64,000 nucleotides of DNA. Source: Bacteroidales bacterium. Its GTDB lineage: Bacteria; Planctomycetota; Planctomycetia; Gemmatales; Gemmataceae. Positions 38,261-49,794 of this stretch are shown here, one piece after another; within the stretch, counting starts at the first letter, position 1, and each line of letters begins with the position of its first letter. Both the position numbers and the translations under genes were made by a program. The notes beneath the pieces were generated by a model. That model had not been told where the DNA came from. It worked only from the letters and a program-made list of their open reading frames with translations, and ran no database searches. The stretch is taken from assembly GCA_026931725.1 (NCBI GenBank), contig JAIXLE010000218.1:1-64000 (forward strand), in the 5' to 3' direction.

Positions 38261-38300
38261 GATGCCATTCCCGTTATTCATACTCCACCTGATTATTCTC

Positions 38301-40412
38301 ATGCGATCATTCTTCTCACTTGGTGTGCTGCTCCTTCTCGCACTGCCAGCAGTGGCGGACACTTTTTCCGATGTGGCCACACTGACGGCCACATTCGACC
38401 CCCCCCGCGCGAAACCGGGCGAAGTCATTACGCTCACACTGACGGTCAAGCCGAACCGCGAGCGGAATGCTTACACTTATCCCGCCACCAAGCACGACCA
38501 TGGGGGGAAAAGTGAAATCGGTTTTGGTTTACGCGGTGACGTGGTGCTTGTGGGGGAATTGGTCAATCCTCCTGGAACCGTGGAGAAAGCGCCTGAGCAA
38601 GGGGAACTCGATGATGTGTACAAATCACCTGTCCAATGGAAGATTTCCGCCATCGTCTTGCCGACGGCCAAGCCCGGCAAACGCGAAATCGTTCTGACCG
38701 AAACGCGGATCCAAGCCTGCACGATGGGAACGCGAGAAAACTGCTACAACCAACGCGACCCGAAAGCTACGCTCGAAATCCTGGAAGCCGCGCCCGTGGC
38801 GATTCCGAGCCAATTCCAAAATGAAGTCACGCAAGCGACGGCTCCCGTACCGACCGTGGCCACGGTTCTCCCGAGTCCACCCACAGTCACGCCGCCTGTG
38901 GCATCGGGTTTAATCCAGAAACCACCCATTCCAACTTCCGAATATGTGGCAGCGTTGGAAAGCGTGCAGACCAAAATTGTTTTGGCGGATGGTGTCTCCG
39001 CAACAGGTTCTGGGAGTGGAAGCAGTTTAGCGACCTTGTTGCTCGCCGCCGCGTTTTGGGGGATCGTCTCGCTTGTGACACCGTGTGTCTTTCCGATGAT
39101 TCCGATTACGGTGAGTTTGTTTCTGAAACAGAGCCACCAATCCACGGCAACCGTTCTGAAGTTGGCGATGGTCTACTGCCTGACGATTATTATTGTTTTA
39201 GGCGCTTCTGCAATCTTCTTGCTGTCAGTGTTTCGTGAACTCAGTATTGATCCTTACATGAATCTGTTTCTTGGAGGATTGTTTGTCTTCTTCGCACTGA
39301 GTTTGTTTGGAATGTACGATATTGCGTTGCCCGGATTCTTGCTCCGTTTTACGGAAAAACGTCGTGGTTCGGGTGGCATGATCGGGACGGTATTTGGCGC
39401 TCTGGCGTTTAGTATCGTGAGTTTTACCTGTGTTGCACCGTTTCTGGGTGGTTTTGCGGGGATGACAGCGAGTGGGAACTTTACACGCGGGGAACTCATT
39501 CTGGCAGGGATCGTGTTCGCGGCAGCTTTTGCGTCCCCGTTCTTTGTGCTGGCTTTGTTTCCCAGCCTCATCAAAAAACTTCCCAAGTCTGGCGGTTGGT
39601 TGGATTCCGTTAAGGCCGTGATGGGGTTTTTGGAGCTCGCAGCTGCGTTCAAATTCTTCCGAACAGCGGAACTGCGTTTGCTCGATCATTCTGAGTATTT
39701 CACCTATGATTTCTCCTTGGCGGCTTGGGTGGCCATTGCTGGGGTCACAGGGGTCTATCTCCTCAACCTGTTCCGCCTGCCACACGATGAGGAACAGCAG
39801 GCCAATGTGGGTGTCCTTCGCCTCTTGTTCGGATTGATGTTTCTGACACTCGCGGTGTACCTGGCCCCCGGTTTGTTCAAGTCGGAGGGAGAATCACAGC
39901 GACCGAAAGGGGCGGTCTTCGCCTGGGTCGATGCGTTCTTGTTGCCGGAACCGGTTGAAGCGGGCGATCGGGAATTGCCGTGGAGTACGAATTTACCCGG
40001 AGCGATCGAGTCGATTCGTCAAGAGAAACTCAATGGAACGGCTCGGAAACCGTACATCTTCGTGGATTTTACTGGGGTCACTTGTACGAACTGCAAATTG
40101 AACGAAAAGAATGTCTTCCCACAAGCGAATATTCGTCAATTGCTCAGCCGATATACTCTCGTGCAGATGTACACGGATGAAGTCCCCGTGGCGTTCTACA
40201 CTTCCTTGCCGGAAAGCCGTTTACGGAAGGCGGAAGCAACCGCGAATCTGAATTTCCAACGTCAGATTTTCGGCACCGAGCAACTGCCACTGTACGCGAT
40301 CCTGGAACCCCTAACCACGGGGCAAGTGCGTGTCGTTTCCGTCTACGACGAAGGAAAAATCAACGAAGTGGAACGCTTTGAAATGTTCCTTCGCAAACCG
40401 CTCGGCGAATGA
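38301..40412 (+). CDS. dsbD: Thiol:disulfide interchange protein DsbD
   Basis: A 703-residue protein that carries electrons from cytoplasmic thioredoxin to the periplasm. MRSFFSLGVLLLLALPAVAD is a signal peptide, the reason for choosing this start over ATG 38262. Residues 25-160 are the N-terminal domain with RIQACTMGTRENCYN (two cysteines, spaced by seven). Residues 235-510 contain about eight membrane segments with LVTPCVFPMIP and SFTCVAPFLGG, the redox pair. Residues 565-700 are a thioredoxin domain with GVTCTNCKLNE (CTNC near 594). An eight-C run lies in the code near 38399, in frame. It forms a redox trio with the two upstream genes. Confidence 0.93.
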   Translation: MRSFFSLGVLLLLALPAVADTFSDVATLTATFDPPRAKPGEVITLTLTVKPNRERNAYTYPATKHDHGGKSEIGFGLRGDVVLVGELVNPPGTVEKAPEQGELDDVYKSPVQWKISAIVLPTAKPGKREIVLTETRIQACTMGTRENCYNQRDPKATLEILEAAPVAIPSQFQNEVTQATAPVPTVATVLPSPPTVTPPVASGLIQKPPIPTSEYVAALESVQTKIVLADGVSATGSGSGSSLATLLLAAAFWGIVSLVTPCVFPMIPITVSLFLKQSHQSTATVLKLAMVYCLTIIIVLGASAIFLLSVFRELSIDPYMNLFLGGLFVFFALSLFGMYDIALPGFLLRFTEKRRGSGGMIGTVFGALAFSIVSFTCVAPFLGGFAGMTASGNFTRGELILAGIVFAAAFASPFFVLALFPSLIKKLPKSGGWLDSVKAVMGFLELAAAFKFFRTAELRLLDHSEYFTYDFSLAAWVAIAGVTGVYLLNLFRLPHDEEQQANVGVLRLLFGLMFLTLAVYLAPGLFKSEGESQRPKGAVFAWVDAFLLPEPVEAGDRELPWSTNLPGAIESIRQEKLNGTARKPYIFVDFTGVTCTNCKLNEKNVFPQANIRQLLSRYTLVQMYTDEVPVAFYTSLPESRLRKAEATANLNFQRQIFGTEQLPLYAILEPLTTGQVRVVSVYDEGKINEVERFEMFLRKPLGE

Positions 40413-40473: not shown

Positions 40474-41838
40474 ATGAGCTTGTTCCGCGTCAAGACGACG
40501 GAGTGCCGTGTCGGCGTGGTTGGTCACTCTAATGCCGGGAAAACGGTGTTACTGACCTCGCTGATTAACCATTTGGAACACCATGACCCGGATCGCTTTC
40601 GCCTGGGTGATGGGTCCGTGCGCATCCGCAAATTTACCGCACTCAAACCCGATGCGGGGTGGTCCGCTTTCCACTATCCCGGCTTCCGCGATGCCTTGGT
40701 TCACCGCGGGAAATGGCCTGAAAAAACGCGGGATCGCTCGCAATATGCCTGTCAGTTTGAGCGATCCGATTGGACGTTTAGCGATGCGCTTCTCAAGATG
40801 TACGATCTTCCCGGAGAACGATTCGCCGATGCGGCAATGGTTGGGCGATCCTTCGCGGAATGGTCTGATCATATTCTTGCTTTTATTGCCAACGATACAC
40901 CGTATCGAACGTGTTGCCAGCCATTTCTGAATACTCTGTCTGAGAAACCCGAAGAAACGACTCTGCTCACCGCCTATAAACTTGCGCTGGCGAATCTGAT
41001 TCTGGCTTACAAGCCTTTCATCTCACCATCGACGTTTTTACTCGATACATCCGGGTCGGTTGCCAAATCGTCTGATGCGTCCGTGATGGCGGCCACGCGG
41101 TTAGCGGGCTTGGAACTCGGGGCCGAGTTCACGCCGTTATCAGCGGAATTGCGTCAGAAGTACCCGGAACTCACCGCCGTTTTTGCCGCCCGGTTTGAGC
41201 GATACCGCATTGAGGTGGTGCTTCCGTTTTTGGAAGCCTTATGGTCTTGCCATTCCTTGATTGTTCTAGTTGATATTCAGATGGTGCTGGCAGCCGGTGT
41301 TGGGATGTATGATGATAATCGACAAATCCTGCGTGATCTGTTTCAGGTGCTGGATCCTGGGGAATCGCGGTTTGGGTATCTTCGGCGCAACCTGGGGAAA
41401 GTATTCCTGCCTCATGCCTGGCGACCGGGGTGGATCACGCGGATCGCCTTCGTCGCGCCGAAGATGGATCTTGTGCATCCGATGGATCGGGACCATTTGG
41501 AATCGCTGTTGAAACGCCTGATTGGCAAGCTCGCCGAGGATCGAGATGGCTTGCAGGCACGCTATTTCAACTGTGCAGCGGTTGTTTCTGCACGAAAACT
41601 TCCTGTTGGGGAGGAACGGGTTCTGGTAGGAATTCCGTACCGTGATGCGGAAGGCCGACGCATTGCACCGGGGGCCGAACAGCGGTTTCTGGTTTCGGCA
41701 CTACCGGCGGATTGGCCGCATGACTGGAAGCCCGGAGATTATATTTTCCCCGAAGTGTATCCGGCGGTTCCCAATCGGAAAGATTGTCCGCCGGATCAGA
41801 TTAACCTCGATCGCATCTTGGACTTCGTGCTAGATTGA
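40474..41838 (+). CDS. YcjX-like P-loop NTPase
   Basis: A 454-residue cytoplasmic GTPase-like protein. GVVGHSNAGKTVLLTSL (residues about 14-30) is the Walker A loop of the YcjX/DUF463 family; MYDLPGERF is a plausible switch/Walker B region, and IAFVAPKMDLVHP sits where the base-recognition motif would be. The family is stress-induced next to phage-shock genes in enterobacteria, but no psp genes are here. The ribosome binding site is weak. Its stop lies in a hairpin shared with the convergent gene. Confidence 0.82.
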   Translation: MSLFRVKTTECRVGVVGHSNAGKTVLLTSLINHLEHHDPDRFRLGDGSVRIRKFTALKPDAGWSAFHYPGFRDALVHRGKWPEKTRDRSQYACQFERSDWTFSDALLKMYDLPGERFADAAMVGRSFAEWSDHILAFIANDTPYRTCCQPFLNTLSEKPEETTLLTAYKLALANLILAYKPFISPSTFLLDTSGSVAKSSDASVMAATRLAGLELGAEFTPLSAELRQKYPELTAVFAARFERYRIEVVLPFLEALWSCHSLIVLVDIQMVLAAGVGMYDDNRQILRDLFQVLDPGESRFGYLRRNLGKVFLPHAWRPGWITRIAFVAPKMDLVHPMDRDHLESLLKRLIGKLAEDRDGLQARYFNCAAVVSARKLPVGEERVLVGIPYRDAEGRRIAPGAEQRFLVSALPADWPHDWKPGDYIFPEVYPAVPNRKDCPPDQINLDRILDFVLD

Positions 41839-41856
41839 GAGTCTTCCTACTCAATC
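41833..41856. terminator. Hairpin spanning two convergent stop codons
   Basis: GATTGAG (41833-41839) pairs with CTCAATC (41850-41856) around ten bases. The left arm holds the TGA of the YcjX-like gene and the right arm the TGA of the DUF1549/1553 gene read on the other strand. Confidence 0.55.
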
Positions 41857-44151
41857 AATGTAGGCGAACTCATTCGTATTGAAGATCGCCAAACACAAAT
41901 CCGCGAAGGCGCTGGCGTGGGCAGGATCGGTGGTGGCAGAGAGCCCAACTGGGATACCAGCAGGTTTTCGTGCCGCGATACGATCCCGACAGGCGGCGGC
42001 TTGCGTTTTCAAGAACTCTTGCGCGGTGGCCAGTTCTTCCGCACGCGGGGCACGCCCGAAAGCACGCCAATACAGGGCATCAATCGCTCGGGCTTCGTCA
42101 GTCCCAAACTGATTGAGGAGGTTCACCGCGAACCGTTGCGATTGCGTTCGAGTGAATGGTCCATTCATCAGAATCAGAGCCTGAGGGGCAAAGGTACTGA
42201 CGGCTCGGCCCGCGCAGGAACTCAGGGTATCCGGTTGGTCAAACGCTTCCATGAGTGGTAGGCGAACATTCCGTTTGCGGAGGAGATAAAGGCTTCGCCG
42301 GGTGTGCTGCCGTTCATCGGGTGTCACCGGCCACAGGTTATCGGGTTCTCCTTCCGTGAAGATGAGGTCATACACTTCCGGTTCGAGCGGGACTTTGACA
42401 CTCCGCCCGCCGACTGTCGGGTTCAGCGTCCCCGACACCGCTAAAATGGCATCCCGTAGCGATTCCGCATCCAAGCGAGTTCGGTTCATTTTCCAGAGCC
42501 AATGATTATCGGGGTCTTTGGCCATCGCATCGGGGTTCCGCACATGGGATGCCTGGCGATAGGTCGCGGACATCACCATCAGTTTGTGCATGCGTTTGAG
42601 CGACCACGGCGTGTTGTTGGTGCCAGCAACTGCGATCGAAGGTTTCATCAATTCGACCGCCAACCAGTCCAGCAAGGCCGGGTGTGTCGGTGGGCTGCCG
42701 CGTGTGCCGAAATCGTTTGTCGTTTCGACGATGCCATGACCAAAATGGTGTTGCCAGAGGCGATTGACGTACACCCGAGCCGTCAACGGATGCCGGGGAT
42801 CGGTCAGCCAGTCCGCGAGATCGACTCGGGATCGCGGTTTGTTGCCGATTTCGGCTACCACACGCAGGTAGGCAGGATTGGCTTCACCGGCTTTTCGGTG
42901 AACGTCGCCCCGTTTGAGAACATATGTGACGGCTTTTTCTTCCAGGTTCTCAATTGCCCAGGCTTGTGAGAGCGGCGGGGGCAATTCTGCCTTGATTTGG
43001 CGTTGTTGCTCTTTGAGGGCATCCCGTTCTGCTCGCACATCCGGTGGTAATACGGCTAGAACTTCATCCCAATAGACACGAATCAACAGTGCGGATTCTG
43101 CCGCCAGTTGCTTTTGTTCGTTGGTGCGTTTCGCCGCAGGGGTGTCGACTGCTGCTCGCGCTTCTGGGCTGAGCTTGGCTTTCTTTTCCGCCAGAACTTG
43201 CGCATGATAAGGCGCTTCCAATGCGGACAGCCGGCTGTTGAGCGGTGCCAACTTTTTACTGACCGCTGCGGATTGCGTCTTATAGGCCTGCCGTTCGGCA
43301 TCCGTGGCGATGGCGTGATCTTTGTACTTCGCTTCCTCGAAGAACGCTTGCAGGCGGTAGTAATCGCCCAGAGAAATCGGGTCAAACTTATGGTCGTGGC
43401 AACGGGCACAGGCAATGGTTAGGCCGAGAACAGCGGAACCGAGTCCGTTCACCATTTCCGTGAGGGTTTCTTGCCGGAGCTCTGCTGGGTCCGTGTTTCC
43501 ACCGACCATGTGTGCAGGCCCGCAGCGATGCATCCCGGTCGCAATGCGTAGGCGAGTCGCATCAGCTTCGTTCTGGCCCGCCGCGAGTAAGTCGCCCGCA
43601 ACTTGTTCGCGCACGAAGACATCGTAGGGAGTATCCGCATTCATGTGCGAGACAACATAGTCTCGATAACGCCAAGCGTGTGGTCGTTCGCCATCTGCTT
43701 CGTAGCCGTTGGATTCGGCGAAACGCACCACATCCAGCCAATGTTGCGCCCAGCGTTCCCCGTAATGAGGGGAAGCCAGCAGGCGATCCACGAGCTGTTC
43801 GTAAGCCTGGGGTGATGTATCTTTGACAAACTGTTCAACTTCTTTTGCAGTCGGCGGAAGCCCGGTCAGATCGAATGTGAGCCGACGAATCAGCGTTCGG
43901 CGATCAGCTTCCGGGGCTGGGGTGAGCTTGTGTTTGGCGAGTTCCGCTTGAATGAACGCATCAATCGGGTTCGCAGTGGCTGCGGCATTCGACTGCGGGA
44001 TGGGCGCACGCTGCGGCGGAACGAAGGACCAGTGCCCCCGTTCCTCCGCGGTGAGTGTTGGATCAGAATATTGCTCCTGTGCCGGAACGATCCTGGGGTT
44101 CCATAAGAGGAACAGCGTGGATATGGCAAGCAAACGCCCTGTTATGGTCAT
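41851..44151 (-). CDS. Secreted DUF1549/DUF1553 (PSCyt2-PSD1) protein
   Basis: A 766-residue exported protein typical of planctomycetes. The signal peptide is MTITGRLLAISTLFLLW; ATG 44151 has AGGA 11 bases upstream. Residues about 60-270 are DUF1549 (RRLTFDLTGLPPTAKEVEQF, HYGERWAQHWLDVVRFAES), including CARCH in the segment TIACARCHDHKFDPIS, a CxxCH that could bind haem c. The C-terminal DUF1553 has DLADWLTDPRHPLTARVYVNRLWQ and RMHKLMVMSATYRQAS. There is no N-terminal PSCyt1 haem domain, and the usual DUF1501 partner gene is absent. Function is unknown, probably surface carbohydrate or redox related. Confidence 0.9.
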   Translation of the reverse strand: MTITGRLLAISTLFLLWNPRIVPAQEQYSDPTLTAEERGHWSFVPPQRAPIPQSNAAATANPIDAFIQAELAKHKLTPAPEADRRTLIRRLTFDLTGLPPTAKEVEQFVKDTSPQAYEQLVDRLLASPHYGERWAQHWLDVVRFAESNGYEADGERPHAWRYRDYVVSHMNADTPYDVFVREQVAGDLLAAGQNEADATRLRIATGMHRCGPAHMVGGNTDPAELRQETLTEMVNGLGSAVLGLTIACARCHDHKFDPISLGDYYRLQAFFEEAKYKDHAIATDAERQAYKTQSAAVSKKLAPLNSRLSALEAPYHAQVLAEKKAKLSPEARAAVDTPAAKRTNEQKQLAAESALLIRVYWDEVLAVLPPDVRAERDALKEQQRQIKAELPPPLSQAWAIENLEEKAVTYVLKRGDVHRKAGEANPAYLRVVAEIGNKPRSRVDLADWLTDPRHPLTARVYVNRLWQHHFGHGIVETTNDFGTRGSPPTHPALLDWLAVELMKPSIAVAGTNNTPWSLKRMHKLMVMSATYRQASHVRNPDAMAKDPDNHWLWKMNRTRLDAESLRDAILAVSGTLNPTVGGRSVKVPLEPEVYDLIFTEGEPDNLWPVTPDERQHTRRSLYLLRKRNVRLPLMEAFDQPDTLSSCAGRAVSTFAPQALILMNGPFTRTQSQRFAVNLLNQFGTDEARAIDALYWRAFGRAPRAEELATAQEFLKTQAAACRDRIAARKPAGIPVGLSATTDPAHASAFADLCLAIFNTNEFAYID

Positions 44152-44407
44152 GGGAAAGTGATCCTGTCGAGGAGACGTTCGTCTTAGGAGTGCAGAGATA
44201 TAATATACGGCGTGCCCGCTTTTCGCAACCGATCGGGGTTTCACAGTTTCCCCTTCTGAGGCAGCATCCAGTAGGCCCGACAGGCAATTCCCGGTGTTGC
44301 TCGGACATTCGGCTGCCGGAAACGCCCCGGTTTGCTATATTTGAACGAATTCCCTCGGATTCGAGAATATCTCTCCAATCCGATTTTTGCATGGAAAGGG
44401 TCGACCG

Positions 44408-44512
44408 ATGGGTTTCCAGTTCAGCCGTAAGGAACTCCGTACCGCCGCCAAACGTCGCCGGAAGAAGACCAAACATAAATTGCGGAGTACGAAGAAGCAC
44501 AAGCGCGTATAA
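44408..44512 (+). CDS. 34-residue AURKAIP1/Cox24 (mS38)-like basic protein
   Basis: A tiny, strongly basic protein: it starts MGFQFSRKELRTAAKRR, continues with a KKTKHKLR core and ends TKKHKRV. The KRRRKKTKHK block matches the C-terminal motif of mitochondrial ribosomal protein mS38 (AURKAIP1, yeast Cox24) and the short bacterial proteins annotated with that domain. A ribosome-binding role is likely by homology. AAAGG lies about 9 bases before the ATG. The 256 bases before it (44152-44407) show no other gene; a TATATT near 44335 could be a -10 element. A hairpin follows. Confidence 0.8.
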   Translation: MGFQFSRKELRTAAKRRRKKTKHKLRSTKKHKRV

Positions 44513-44548
44513 GTTCACTGTGCGTGGCGTGGGTCATCATCGTTTCGT

Positions 44549-44575
44549 GGGGGAGAGGTTGGAAACCGATCCCCC
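44549..44575 (+). terminator. Hairpin with tandem G-A mismatches after the mS38-like gene
   Basis: GGGGGA (44549-44554) pairs with TCCCCC (44570-44575) and GGTT (44557-44560) with AACC (44564-44567); the two stems are separated by GA opposite GA. It follows the small gene by 36 bases. The rest of the 296-base gap to 44809 shows nothing else. Confidence 0.5.
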
Positions 44576-44808
44576 AGTTCGTTTACTGGCGTTGGTTGGA
44601 GAGATTGGGACGCACTTTGACATCCCACGACTAGGCAAAGGGTCGTGTTGGATAGATGGGCATGAATCGTCATTTCTTGAGTTGTTGCTCCGTCCCGCGT
44701 TTTCGCACAATCCGGTAGTTGGGTTCCGCGTTTTACTCTTGAGACGTGAAGATCGAGCCGGGACAATCAACACCGAAGAATATTCCGGTCAGACGAGGAT
44801 CGACCAGC

Positions 44809-47800
44809 ATGCGACACATCCGCCGACTTCTGGAGTCCTGTCTCGCTTTGGGTGGTTGTTTGGTCGTGGCCGGTTTTCTCGGCTGGTGGCCCGCGTTTGG
44901 TCAGAACCTCATCAAACAAGCCCCGATTGCGCCGAAACCTGCCGATGATTCCTCCGATCAGGAGATGAACGACGGTTTTGAGTCGCTGGCGTTGCCGAAA
45001 GACCGCGATTCCTCGCAACGCTATCAGGCGGTCCTCGATTACCTGGCCCGCGAAAAGAACATTCCGTGGGACATTGTGTGTGGGACTGCCCAACAATTGC
45101 TGGATAGTGGGAGTGATTCCTTCTACGAAATCGAAGAACCAAGCGAGGCAGGGCAGACCCGGAAACGCTATGTGAGCATCAAAGATCAAACCAATCGCCT
45201 GATTGGTGCCTTCCCCGCAGAAGGTCGGCAATTTTATCAGCTGACATTCGGCCCACCTGCTGATGCGGCCCTCAAAGCAGCCATCAAAGCGGGTTACGAT
45301 CCCGGAATGCTGGCGGCTGTTTCGCAACGCTATTTCCATACTGATGCCGGTGGTCAGGCTGCGTTGCTGATTGCGACGTTGAACCTGCATAAAGGGAACT
45401 ATGTCGAAGCCGCTTATGGGTTCGCCCGCCTGCTCGCTCGGCCGGGTTCTGAGGATCTGCTCACTCCGCTGACGTTGTTCAAAGCGGCCGTGGCGTTCAA
45501 ACGGGCTCCCGAAGGTGTTTCCCCTCGGTTACTGGGGCAAGTCTGGGAACGACTCGAACGACAGTTCCCCCGCGATGGTCTGTTACTGGGCGGCAAAACG
45601 TACTCACTAGAAGAATTGCGTCAGGAGCGAGATTTTCCGGTTGAAATGCTCTTTGGCCGTGTCGGGGATCAGTATGTCACCACTCGCTATGGAAATGCCG
45701 CCCATACGGGGGTTGGGGAAGGGGGGACACCGTTTCTCTCGCCATCGTTTGTGAGTCGAGTGCTGCAACTTTCCGATGACACGGCACCGCAGGATGGCCG
45801 GGATTGGATCAAAGAAGCGATCAGTAAAGCGATCAGTTTTCTCAACCAGACCAAATCGAAAGGGCAGGTAGCCTTACCGGGGTTCTTCCCCGTGACGGCT
45901 CCGAATCTGATTCTGTATCGTACCTACGATGGAGTGTACGCACGGGTGACGAAGAATGGGTTCGTCTCCCGCGGGCGGACGCTGAACGCTGGTGATCTCT
46001 TCTGGATGACCCCAACCAAGGGCGGTCTATACTCACTGATTACGAACTCCAGCGGAGCAGTGAAAAACGAGGTGGAACAATGGTGGCGGCCATTCTGGGA
46101 ACAACGCACGCCCACGCTGGTCTTTGAAAATGCACAAGTGGGCTCGCTCAGCCATGATGGGAAGCTCGTGTATTTCATCGATGATGTCGCCGTGCCACCG
46201 CCTGCGCAATTGTTCAATCCGCAATTCGGTGGGTTTCCCAATCCCGCGGGAATGGCTCCTGGAACGACCGGCTTACGCGGGATGACGGAATATAGCCGTC
46301 TGGTTGCGGTAGACATGATGACCGGAAAGCTCGTCTGGTCCCTGGGTGGATTGGCGACCACGAAAATGACCGAAGAAGAAGAACGGAAGTCAACTAACAC
46401 TGCCGAATTGACGGATAACGCGATTTTCCTGGGGCCGCCTGTCCCCATCAATGGCAAGTTGTACGTCTTGTACGAACGCGACAGCTACCTCCGACTCGCC
46501 TGTATCGACCCGCATAAACTCGTGGGAGGCCAGGTTGAGAACAGCAAGCGGGCCGACAAGTACCCCGAACTCATCTGGACACAAAATCTCGGTCGACCCA
46601 ATACCCCGCTGCATCAAGATTCCCTGCGGCGGATTCAACCCGTGTATCTAACCTATGCGGATGGTGTGCTGGTGTGCCCGACCAACTGCGGGGCCGTCAT
46701 TGCGGTGGATATTAACGCACGCAGCCTCCTTTGGGCACGCGGGTATGGCACGGCGGACCCGCAACCGAAGCCGATCAACGGTCGTATTCGTCGTGTGCCG
46801 GTCAATCCCCAACAGACATTGCCACAGGATCGTTGGCGCGCATCCGCGCCGATTATCGCGGATGGCAAAGTCATCGTCACGGCTTATGACTCTGATCAGA
46901 TTCAATGCCTGGACCTACGAACCGGGAATATCCTCTGGGCAGATGCACGCGAGAAAGATGACCTGATGGTCGGCGGCGTGGTGTCCGGCACGGTGGTTGT
47001 GGTCGGCAAAAATACGGCTCGTGGCTACGCTCTGAACGGGAATGGCAAACCCATCTGGAAACAACTGAAGATTGGCACCCCCGCTGGGCACGGCGTGGCG
47101 ACCAAAGATGGCCTCTATTACATTCCCATGCTCGGTGACCCGGATCGCCCCGATTCGACCCAACCGCAAGTCTGGGCCATTGATGCCGCTTCGGGTCAAG
47201 TCCGCTCGAAGACGGCATTCCGCGAGAAGACCATCGACTATGTGGACCGATACGAACCCAAAGATAGCCGGATTGTGTTGGGCAATCTCGTGTTCCATGA
47301 AGGGCAACTCTTCTCACAATCGGCCACCCGCATTTCCGCGTTCCCGTTGATCGAACTGAAGAAGCGAGAAATGGATCGACTCCTCGCCCAAAACCCGAAC
47401 GACCCGAAGGGACTCACGTTCCGGGGGGAGTTGCTGTTGGATGATGGCAAACTCCAAGCGGCGGTTGCGGACTTCAAGGCTGCGGAAAAGCACAACCCAC
47501 CAGAAGAAATTCGCCGGACCATCCGCGAGAAACTGTATCAGGCTTACACGGAGTTGCTTCGTAATAACTTTGATGCGGCCGAAGGAATTCTCAACGAGTA
47601 TCAAGCACTCTGCGAAATTCCCATCGACACCGAAAATGAACTGAAACGCCAAGAGTTGCTGGACGAACAGATTCGCCGGAAAGGTTTGTATCTTTCGCTC
47701 GTGGCGCGTGGCCGTGAGAAGCAGGGTCGGCTCGTGGAGGCGTTCGACCATTATCGCGCCTTCGCCTCACTCGGTGATAATTCGCAACTCTTCTCCATCT

Positions 47801-49794
47801 TCGATGAACCGAACGGTATGACACGCCCCGATGTCTGGGCGCGGGGTCGCATTGATGCGATGATTCGCAACGCCAAAGACCCAGCAACCCGTAAACCGCT
47901 CGAAGATCGCGTGACGAGCGATTGGGAAGCGGTACGCGGTGCAAATGATCTGAAACGACTCCGAGAGTTCGTACAAGTGTTCGGGCCGTATTTCCCCTCG
48001 GGCCGAGAAGCGCAACTCTTACTCGCCGAAAAACTGTTGTTGACGAACAACGACGACGATATGCGGGATGCACAAATCCAGTTGATGCAATTGTGGGCCA
48101 CGGCAGAAGATGACCAGACCATCGCCCGTGCCATTGAGGCGTTGGCCCGCGTCATGACCCGGCGCGGGATGCTCGAAGACGCGGTGGGGTTGTACGCCCA
48201 ACTCGGGACGCGGTATGCCGAGGTTGTCGTCCGTGATGGGAAAACCGGAGCGGAATTGTACGGAGAACTGATTACCGATAAACGGTTGCTACCGTACCTC
48301 GAACCGGCACGCGGTTCCACATTCTCCAGTTACAACGTGGAATTCCAGTTAGGGAATACGGGCCGACCGTTCCAACAACAGACCTTCACCGTGCGGCCGG
48401 ATGGGGATTTATTGCCCTTCTTTGCTCGCTATCGGCTCACGATGGAAATGAACCCGAACGGCGGCACCGAACCGTGGGTGTTGCGGGTGACCGATCATGT
48501 GACGGGGGAGGATCGGTGCAAATTTCCCGGTTTGTCCATGATTCTGGGCCGCAATGGCTTCAACCAGGGGCCGCCGTCTTACCGTGTCGCTCAAGCGAGC
48601 GGGCATCTCTTGCTGATGAACATCGGGCAGTTTGCCTATTGCTTCGACTTGGCCGAGAAACGCGAACTCTGGCGGTACAACCTGTTCGGCAACAATTTCC
48701 AGGATCCGAACCAGCAACCCCAGGTGCAACCCCCGCAACCCGGCGAAGACCCGAATGAACTCGTGGTGTCCTACCCGGATGGCTGGACTCTCCGGTTGGG
48801 CCGCTCGGCCGTCATTCAACCGAACTATGTGTGTCTGGTCACACGCGATGGCCTTGTAGCACTCGATCCGTACACCAAGGAACTCCTATGGCAACGGACG
48901 AACGTATCGACCAAGGCGCAGGTCTTCGGTGATGCGCGCCATCTCTTTTTGATCGAAACATCGGCTGCGGGCACCACGGCAAAAGTGTTGCGGGCGGTGG
49001 ATGGCTCGATCGTGGAGAACGTCCCCGATTTCGCCGCGATGTATGCTAGTTCGGCGCGAGTCGGTGTCTGGGGTCGCCACATCCTCCTCAGCGAAGGCGG
49101 CGACGAAAAACCACGCGTGCTGCGTCTCTATGATCCGCTCACGGGGCAGGATGCATGGTCGAAACAGTACCCGCCCCAGGCGGTTATCATCACCACAGAC
49201 GATCGCGATTGGACGGGCAGTCTGGCTCCCGATGGATCGTTTGAGGTTCTGCATGTCAACACAGGCAAATTGATTTTCCAGGGGCAAATCGATGCGGCCA
49301 ATCTGGCCGAACACACCTGTAACTCGGAAGGGAAGTTCGACATTACCGAACCCTATCTCCTGATGGATGCGGAGCGCGTGTATCTGTTTCTAAATCGAAA
49401 ATTGGACCGCAACCGCCGAAACTTGCAGGGGAACGGTTTCTCGATGGTGAAGTCGCACCCCGTGAATGGGGCCGCTTATGGTTTTGATCGCACGACCGGC
49501 AAGCGGCTCTGGTTCTATGATGGACCGTTTGAGAATCAACTGCTGATTCTGGAACGATTTGATGAACTTCCGGTCCTCATCGCGGCAGCGCCCGGTGTTG
49601 ATGAAGAGGATCATGTCATGAAGTACAACGTCATCGTTCTCGATAAACGGGGTCGGCTTGATAAACGGCAAGGATTCCCCCAGAATGGTGCCTTCGTGTC
49701 GATGTACGCGGATCCCAAAACGCGAGCCATCGAACTCTGGCGCTACGATTTGCGGCTCCGCATCGAGCCGAAAGATTCCGCATCATCCCGATAA
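44809..49794 (+). CDS. Giant secreted PQQ-type beta-propeller protein with TPR-like centre
   Basis: A 1661-residue exported protein. The N-terminal 35 residues are a signal peptide or anchor (LLESCLALGGCLVVAGFLGWW). Residues 60-320 are helical. Residues about 370-850 carry PQQ-like propeller blades, recognised by MTGKLVWS, ARSLLWARG, LRTGNILWAD and GNGKPIWKQ. Residues 860-1150 are helical and TPR-like (DDGKLQAAVADFKAAEKHNP). Residues 1200-1660 form a second propeller with YTKELLWQR, LTGQDAWSK and TTGKRLWFY. Start ATG 44809 has GAGG 9 bases upstream. Two hairpins follow its stop. Substrate and partners are unknown; the PQQ-like blades may not bind PQQ. Confidence 0.85.
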   Translation: MRHIRRLLESCLALGGCLVVAGFLGWWPAFGQNLIKQAPIAPKPADDSSDQEMNDGFESLALPKDRDSSQRYQAVLDYLAREKNIPWDIVCGTAQQLLDSGSDSFYEIEEPSEAGQTRKRYVSIKDQTNRLIGAFPAEGRQFYQLTFGPPADAALKAAIKAGYDPGMLAAVSQRYFHTDAGGQAALLIATLNLHKGNYVEAAYGFARLLARPGSEDLLTPLTLFKAAVAFKRAPEGVSPRLLGQVWERLERQFPRDGLLLGGKTYSLEELRQERDFPVEMLFGRVGDQYVTTRYGNAAHTGVGEGGTPFLSPSFVSRVLQLSDDTAPQDGRDWIKEAISKAISFLNQTKSKGQVALPGFFPVTAPNLILYRTYDGVYARVTKNGFVSRGRTLNAGDLFWMTPTKGGLYSLITNSSGAVKNEVEQWWRPFWEQRTPTLVFENAQVGSLSHDGKLVYFIDDVAVPPPAQLFNPQFGGFPNPAGMAPGTTGLRGMTEYSRLVAVDMMTGKLVWSLGGLATTKMTEEEERKSTNTAELTDNAIFLGPPVPINGKLYVLYERDSYLRLACIDPHKLVGGQVENSKRADKYPELIWTQNLGRPNTPLHQDSLRRIQPVYLTYADGVLVCPTNCGAVIAVDINARSLLWARGYGTADPQPKPINGRIRRVPVNPQQTLPQDRWRASAPIIADGKVIVTAYDSDQIQCLDLRTGNILWADAREKDDLMVGGVVSGTVVVVGKNTARGYALNGNGKPIWKQLKIGTPAGHGVATKDGLYYIPMLGDPDRPDSTQPQVWAIDAASGQVRSKTAFREKTIDYVDRYEPKDSRIVLGNLVFHEGQLFSQSATRISAFPLIELKKREMDRLLAQNPNDPKGLTFRGELLLDDGKLQAAVADFKAAEKHNPPEEIRRTIREKLYQAYTELLRNNFDAAEGILNEYQALCEIPIDTENELKRQELLDEQIRRKGLYLSLVARGREKQGRLVEAFDHYRAFASLGDNSQLFSIFDEPNGMTRPDVWARGRIDAMIRNAKDPATRKPLEDRVTSDWEAVRGANDLKRLREFVQVFGPYFPSGREAQLLLAEKLLLTNNDDDMRDAQIQLMQLWATAEDDQTIARAIEALARVMTRRGMLEDAVGLYAQLGTRYAEVVVRDGKTGAELYGELITDKRLLPYLEPARGSTFSSYNVEFQLGNTGRPFQQQTFTVRPDGDLLPFFARYRLTMEMNPNGGTEPWVLRVTDHVTGEDRCKFPGLSMILGRNGFNQGPPSYRVAQASGHLLLMNIGQFAYCFDLAEKRELWRYNLFGNNFQDPNQQPQVQPPQPGEDPNELVVSYPDGWTLRLGRSAVIQPNYVCLVTRDGLVALDPYTKELLWQRTNVSTKAQVFGDARHLFLIETSAAGTTAKVLRAVDGSIVENVPDFAAMYASSARVGVWGRHILLSEGGDEKPRVLRLYDPLTGQDAWSKQYPPQAVIITTDDRDWTGSLAPDGSFEVLHVNTGKLIFQGQIDAANLAEHTCNSEGKFDITEPYLLMDAERVYLFLNRKLDRNRRNLQGNGFSMVKSHPVNGAAYGFDRTTGKRLWFYDGPFENQLLILERFDELPVLIAAAPGVDEEDHVMKYNVIVLDKRGRLDKRQGFPQNGAFVSMYADPKTRAIELWRYDLRLRIEPKDSASSR

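Follow-up and report, generated by a model that had tools for sequence, protein, structure and literature searches.

A conserved 34-codon gene of the Gemmataceae encodes a strongly basic protein that may serve as an extra, bS22/mS38-like ribosomal protein

Locus and expression signals

The window, i.e., the whole 64,000-nucleotide stretch of DNA that was analysed, contains a 34-codon gene that lies alone in the interval separating a PQQ-propeller gene from a divergent DUF1549/DUF1553 gene (Table 1). Its coordinates, strand and translation had been given correctly in the original prediction. Sixteen of the 34 residues of the product are lysine or arginine (47%), and single-sequence AlphaFold2 modelling predicts a six-residue loop followed by one helix (mean pLDDT 90). 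Residues 15-30 are the stretch that aligns with bacterial bS22 and mitochondrial mS38. This version of the protein is referred to here as form A. A YcjX-like GTPase gene (DUF463, 40474-41838) is found close by, beside a DsbD-like gene (38262-40412), and is unrelated to the 34-codon gene.

Table 1. Features at and around the 34-codon gene
Feature	Position	Strand	Details
Upstream neighbour, divergent, DUF1549/DUF1553 protein; outside the system	41851..44154	-	scanned 41854-44151
Extended -10-like box TGcTATATT (TATATT)	44336..44341	+	66 nt before start
Partial Shine-Dalgarno AAGG	44396..44399	+	8 nt spacing to start
34-codon gene, form A	44408..44512	+	product MGFQFSRKELRTAAKRRRKKTKHKLRSTKKHKRV, then stop at 44510-44512
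Predicted single basic helix, residues 7-33	44426..44506	+	AlphaFold2, single sequence
Downstream hairpin	44547..44577	+	no T-run; weak as terminator
Downstream neighbour, large PQQ/BamB-like beta-propeller protein; outside the system	44746..49794	+	

The gene had been credited with its own ribosome binding site and hairpin. Both exist, but the first is partial in the window, and the second is weak: the 100-nt stretch tested folds no better than shuffles (z -0.19). At least four bases of AAGGAGG were found upstream in 44 of 51 extracted rows, a count that has no shuffle control and includes three misassigned starts. The 70 nt downstream of form-A genes folded, on average, better than mononucleotide shuffles (mean z -2.07), and a hairpin with a T-rich tail follows 9 of 38 of them. 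The -10-like box had been missed by the original prediction. A TATAAT-like hexamer (five or six positions matching) is present upstream of 29 of the 38 form-A genes, compared with 6.2% of shuffled upstream sequences; in homologues it reads TAGAAT, TACAAT or TATAAT and mostly lies 30-46 nt before the start (e.g., loci L003, L022 and L033). This recurrent box could help to define Gemmataceae promoters.

The genes on either side vary from genus to genus; even the commonest neighbour cluster occurs in just 5 of 24 loci, and synteny provided neither a functional hint nor an operon link to ribosomal genes. With its changing neighbours, recurrent -10 box and drift at synonymous positions, the gene is a stand-alone unit. 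Its arginine codons were compared with those of uS8 and of neighbouring genes, using the uS8 frame and a GC3 filter: AGA and AGG account for none of 140 arginine codons in the gene (23 genomes), 1 of 277 in uS8 and approximately 4% of 1151 in the neighbours. The window's own assembly (G000) was left out of this comparison because it yielded no uS8 match. Although its completeness is put at 94%, it probably lacks the ribosomal operon, and absence calls in this assembly consequently need care.

Conservation of the reading frame

Frames of this length are common by chance (122 frames of at least 25 aa were counted within 9 kb), and conservation is therefore the criterion that counts for a frame of 34 codons. 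Full-length homologues that share the M-G start and the stop region occur in many genera, and the body of the protein aligns without gaps save for two-residue inserts close to the N-terminus in a few. Form-A homologues from other genera of the family align gaplessly over 33 columns, and M1, G2, K8, R11, K15, R26, K29 and K30 are invariant in all 27 distinct form-A rows. Codon differences among 171 pairs from one genus (g17) comprised 1289 synonymous and 849 non-synonymous changes; in 15 pairs the compared codons encode identical residues yet differ by 2-13 synonymous changes. It is practically certain that the 34-codon frame is a genuine gene. That it is a chance frame can be given next to no credence: short frames are indeed plentiful, but the conservation of the homologues refutes this explanation, and the synonymous drift and the -10 box also speak against it. 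In two genomes of genus g32 (loci L002/L036 and L027) the gene starts with GTG, which would make it still easier to miss.

Distribution within the Gemmataceae

The family was delimited as Gemmataceae by record titles, and 95 of its genomes were sampled. A form-A profile matched 38 of these at E<=1.8e-9, the window genome included, with one full-length copy in each; G060 and G061 also carry form A, with a start further upstream (in-frame ATGGGT), bringing the total to 40 genomes. A second form, B (M(R/K/L)xRKxLRTAAKRRRKAxNHPTPK..., 24-47 aa), is frequent in genera without form A. A joint profile of the two forms matched 62 of the 95 genomes at E<1e-6 (form A in 40, form B in 22). The original view of a genuine, easily missed and very basic gene, with expression signals of its own and a conserved frame, was right. 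Clear copies of both forms were found together in none of the 95 genomes, although G024 and G035 each have two form-B-like copies, and G009 gave a weaker match to the joint profile (E 0.003) beyond the 62. When a profile of ten form-B sequences, built without form A, was used to search the window's own genome, the window gene was the sole match at E<=0.05 (E 1.1e-4). The form-B loci (L006, L014, L058-L062 and L089-L111) merit a family model of their own jointly with form A.

The conserved half of the family is LRTAAKRRRK, and form B has other residues in place of KHK, the latter half of the core. Conservation of the KRRRKKTKHK core in planctomycetes had been proposed as a check; a planctomycete-wide reading is too broad. 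A clear copy was absent by the joint profile from 33 of the 95 family genomes, and the gene is not universal even in the Gemmataceae, unless more divergent forms exist. In the order outside the family none of seven genomes matched the joint profile, and profile searches of 294 evenly sampled genomes of the phylum returned noise only, the weak phylum matches at L063-L065 and L119-L123 included. A scan of named species produced 23 loci, all in planctomycete records, with titles naming Gemmata, Limnoglobus, Fimbriiglobus or Gemmataceae, or that are broader or likely misnamed. The gene is therefore specific to one family and is not a general planctomycete trait.

Comparison with bS22, mS38 and other small basic proteins

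The protein had been said to match the mS38/Cox24 core. Searches of Pfam, NCBIfam and the PDB, with a single sequence and with a profile, matched the family to nothing. At the cut-offs of PF08213 (COX24_C) and NF047430 (ribo_bS22), neither the window protein nor any of the 27 form-A members was recognised, and PF08213 found no match in 59 relatives, while a control organism did match. The bS22 of Mycobacterium smegmatis passes these models; the structurally proven bS22 proteins of Flavobacterium johnsoniae and Borrelia burgdorferi are missed by both. The silence of Pfam and NCBIfam on form A is therefore not decisive, and the curated models are seen to miss proven bS22 proteins. Form A resembles the Flavobacterium and Borrelia proteins in being overlooked by Pfam and NCBIfam and in being weakly similar to mS38; those two have been seen in structures, whereas form A is known from sequence.

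Other profile tests also failed. An hhalign comparison of the form-A family with bS22/mS38 gave a probability of 0.5%. A profile of seven bS22/mS38 references, run over the 59 relatives, did not recover the window gene, even in its own genome, and returned scattered weak matches that differed from genome to genome. In the shared register, form A does not keep two lysines that every reference sequence has (K16 and K19 in M. smegmatis bS22): 3 of 27 rows carry E or D at the first, and all 27 carry S or G at the second.

The alignment register is suggestive. MAFFT, unprompted, places KRRRKxxKHK on the bS22/mS38 core, and 31 of 32 form-A sequences, taken singly, fall into one common mS38/bS22 register; this part of the claimed core match stands, but no family model recognises it. 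A composition-controlled shuffle test compared the best gapless match of the form-A profile to reference profiles with the matches obtained after permuting its columns. The broad references were PDB sequences from mammal, yeast, plant, 8a22 and actinobacteria; chains 9evs and 5mrc, whose records name only mS38 or COX24, were presumed to be the plant and fungal ones. Several reference sets were tried, and the results for all are given. The form-A score was reached by 15 of 3000 shuffles for mS38 with actinobacterial bS22, by 9 of 3000 for mS38 alone and by 115 of 3000 for all references together; with narrow references the test failed, at 1262 of 2000 for the actinobacterial set, 802 of 2000 for Bacteroidota/Borrelia and 171 of 2000 for mammalian mS38. 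The window protein alone gave 67 of 2000 with mammalian mS38. For form B, the broad references gave 329-429 of 3000, which is not significant; the count was 24 of 2000 with mammalian mS38 alone and 4 of 2000 for a post hoc selection of five long form-B sequences, and neither was used as evidence.

Among the positive controls, the actinobacterial, plant, yeast and 8a22 sequences each gave 0 of 3000, Flavobacterium 66 of 3000 and Borrelia 90 of 3000. By this sequence measure, form A is at least as good a match to the mS38 plus bS22 reference as the proven bS22 of Flavobacterium and Borrelia. Of 1389 other K/R-rich six-frame segments from related DNA (19 that were copies of the gene having been excluded), none reached the raw score of the query (41.5) and ten had z of at least 3.4. 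Fourteen negative-control proteins (12 ribosomal proteins of Escherichia coli, THX and eL41) were also scored; none surpassed the mS38/bS22 reference, and 13 were unremarkable.

THX, bL34, bL35 and further ribosomal proteins of this small, basic kind share the size class and charge of form A. The nearest control was E. coli bL35 (22 of 2000 shuffles). Identity with bL35 (PF01632) was rejected, as 1000 of 2000 shuffles reached the score when bL35 from the same organisms was used, and a normal bL35 is encoded elsewhere in 10 of 10 genomes. THX (PF17070) had no match in the window's genome (E<=1) and gave 1729 of 2000 in the shuffle test. eL41, represented by the human protein, gave 401 of 2000.

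A possible place at the ribosome

In the published descriptions, bS22 of Mycobacterium, Cutibacterium, Flavobacterium and Borrelia occupies a pocket of 16S helices h27, h44 and h45, contacts 23S rRNA, and is termed analogous to mS38 and eL41 (PMC10618245, PMC10085706, PMC7005279, PMC6582356); the Borrelia pocket also includes h2 (PMC10618245). The Borrelia gene is described as having been unannotated before cryo-EM, and further unannotated bS22-type cases were predicted in that study (PMC10618245). A length of 28-37 residues, strong basicity and a helix would be expected of a bS22/mS38-type protein; the window protein has 34 residues with a helix predicted at 7-33, traits common to many basic peptides. 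Its K+R content of 47% compares with the 55-65% given for bS22 (PMC10085706).

Compared with bS22 of Mycobacterium and Cutibacterium, the protein is alike in length (33 versus 34 aa), M-G start, K/R-rich helix and stand-alone tiny gene, and the cores align gaplessly along 16 positions. It differs in that its core is preceded by ten additional residues and followed by a shorter tail, in its lack of HMM recognition, in not keeping the invariant lysines, and in a score at shuffle level with the actinobacterial reference. Mitochondrial mS38 (Cox24/AURKAIP1) is the best-scoring reference, and KHKLR of the yeast protein coincides in register with KHKLR of the query; mS38 is, however, a domain of a longer protein whose long C-terminal part is missing from form A, and the conserved hydrophobic M of its core is variable in form A. 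Archaeal eL41, described as a 37-aa protein with an N-terminal extension before a basic helix in the pocket of bS22 (PMC7005279), is alike in size and in that extension; the sequence comparison was made with human eL41.

The charge, size, isolation and conservation of the protein make it likely to be ribosomal or bound to rRNA. On this reading, a small and strongly basic helical protein specific to the lineage would bind rRNA as a supernumerary ribosomal protein. Its likeliest site would be the pocket near the decoding centre that lies between h27, h44 and h45 of the 16S rRNA in the small subunit; bS22 takes this place in Actinobacteria, Bacteroidota and Borrelia, mS38/Cox24/AURKAIP1 in mitochondria, and eL41 in eukaryotes and archaea. 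Seated in this pocket, the helix would clamp h44 at its top and make an inter-subunit contact, with the N-terminal MGIQH extension reaching deeper into the pocket. That the protein is an extra, bS22/mS38-like ribosomal protein in this pocket has a little less than an even chance, the site being suggested by a weak likeness in sequence. For a bS22/mS38-like site as such the chances are about even: the register, and a score comparable to that of proven non-actinobacterial bS22, argue for it and the failed profile tests against it. Because these observations leave the matter so balanced, the protein is not filed as a member of the bS22/mS38 family, although it probably works like one.

It is possible, if somewhat doubtful, that the protein is instead a small lineage-specific ribosomal or rRNA-binding protein that sits elsewhere on one of the two subunits and has no kinship with bS22/mS38, its KRRRK...KHK likeness then being due to convergence of basic helices. 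The lack of profile-level homology would fit this, as would a conserved half, LRTAAKRRRK, that is not the mS38 signature, and mS38-invariant lysines that are not kept; the lineage-specific short ribosomal proteins bL37 and bL38 are described precedents (PMC10618245). The ribosomal controls weigh against it, none of the 14 beating the mS38/bS22 reference and the bL35 likeness vanishing with the bL35 of the same organisms. A small basic nucleic-acid-binding protein away from the ribosome (in the nucleoid, on mRNA or as an RNA chaperone) is unlikely. Composition alone would permit it, and the gene has no operon link to ribosomal genes; conserved stand-alone peptides of 24-47 aa without an acidic or dimerisation part would, however, typify ribosomal extras and not nucleoid proteins. 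An antimicrobial or toxin-like cationic peptide is very improbable: the helix is cationic, and free bS22 of Cutibacterium acnes is described as inhibiting bacterial growth and cell-free translation (PMC10085706), but the protein has no hydrophobic signal or membrane stretch, no conserved immunity or export partner lies nearby, and purifying selection is steady across genera.

A stronger version of the proposed pocket assignment can be offered only tentatively, and is doubtful: in Gemmataceae ribosomes the universal eL41/mS38/bS22 pocket would be filled by a protein of the family's own. This filler would come in two versions (A and B) that exclude each other, would extend its N-terminus toward the P site in the manner of archaeal eL41, and would be absent or unrecognisable in other planctomycetes. 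If so, small basic helices would have been repeatedly gained, swapped and lost at this pocket. Occupancy of the pocket would also bear on shared descent versus convergence of eL41, mS38 and bS22, and on the effect of the pocket on initiation at mRNAs with a weak Shine-Dalgarno sequence or none. A literature search, mostly open-access, returned nothing combining bS22 and Planctomycet and, judged by titles, no planctomycete ribosome structure. The gene represents a family without any matching Pfam or NCBIfam entry, in a bacterial family with unusual cell biology.
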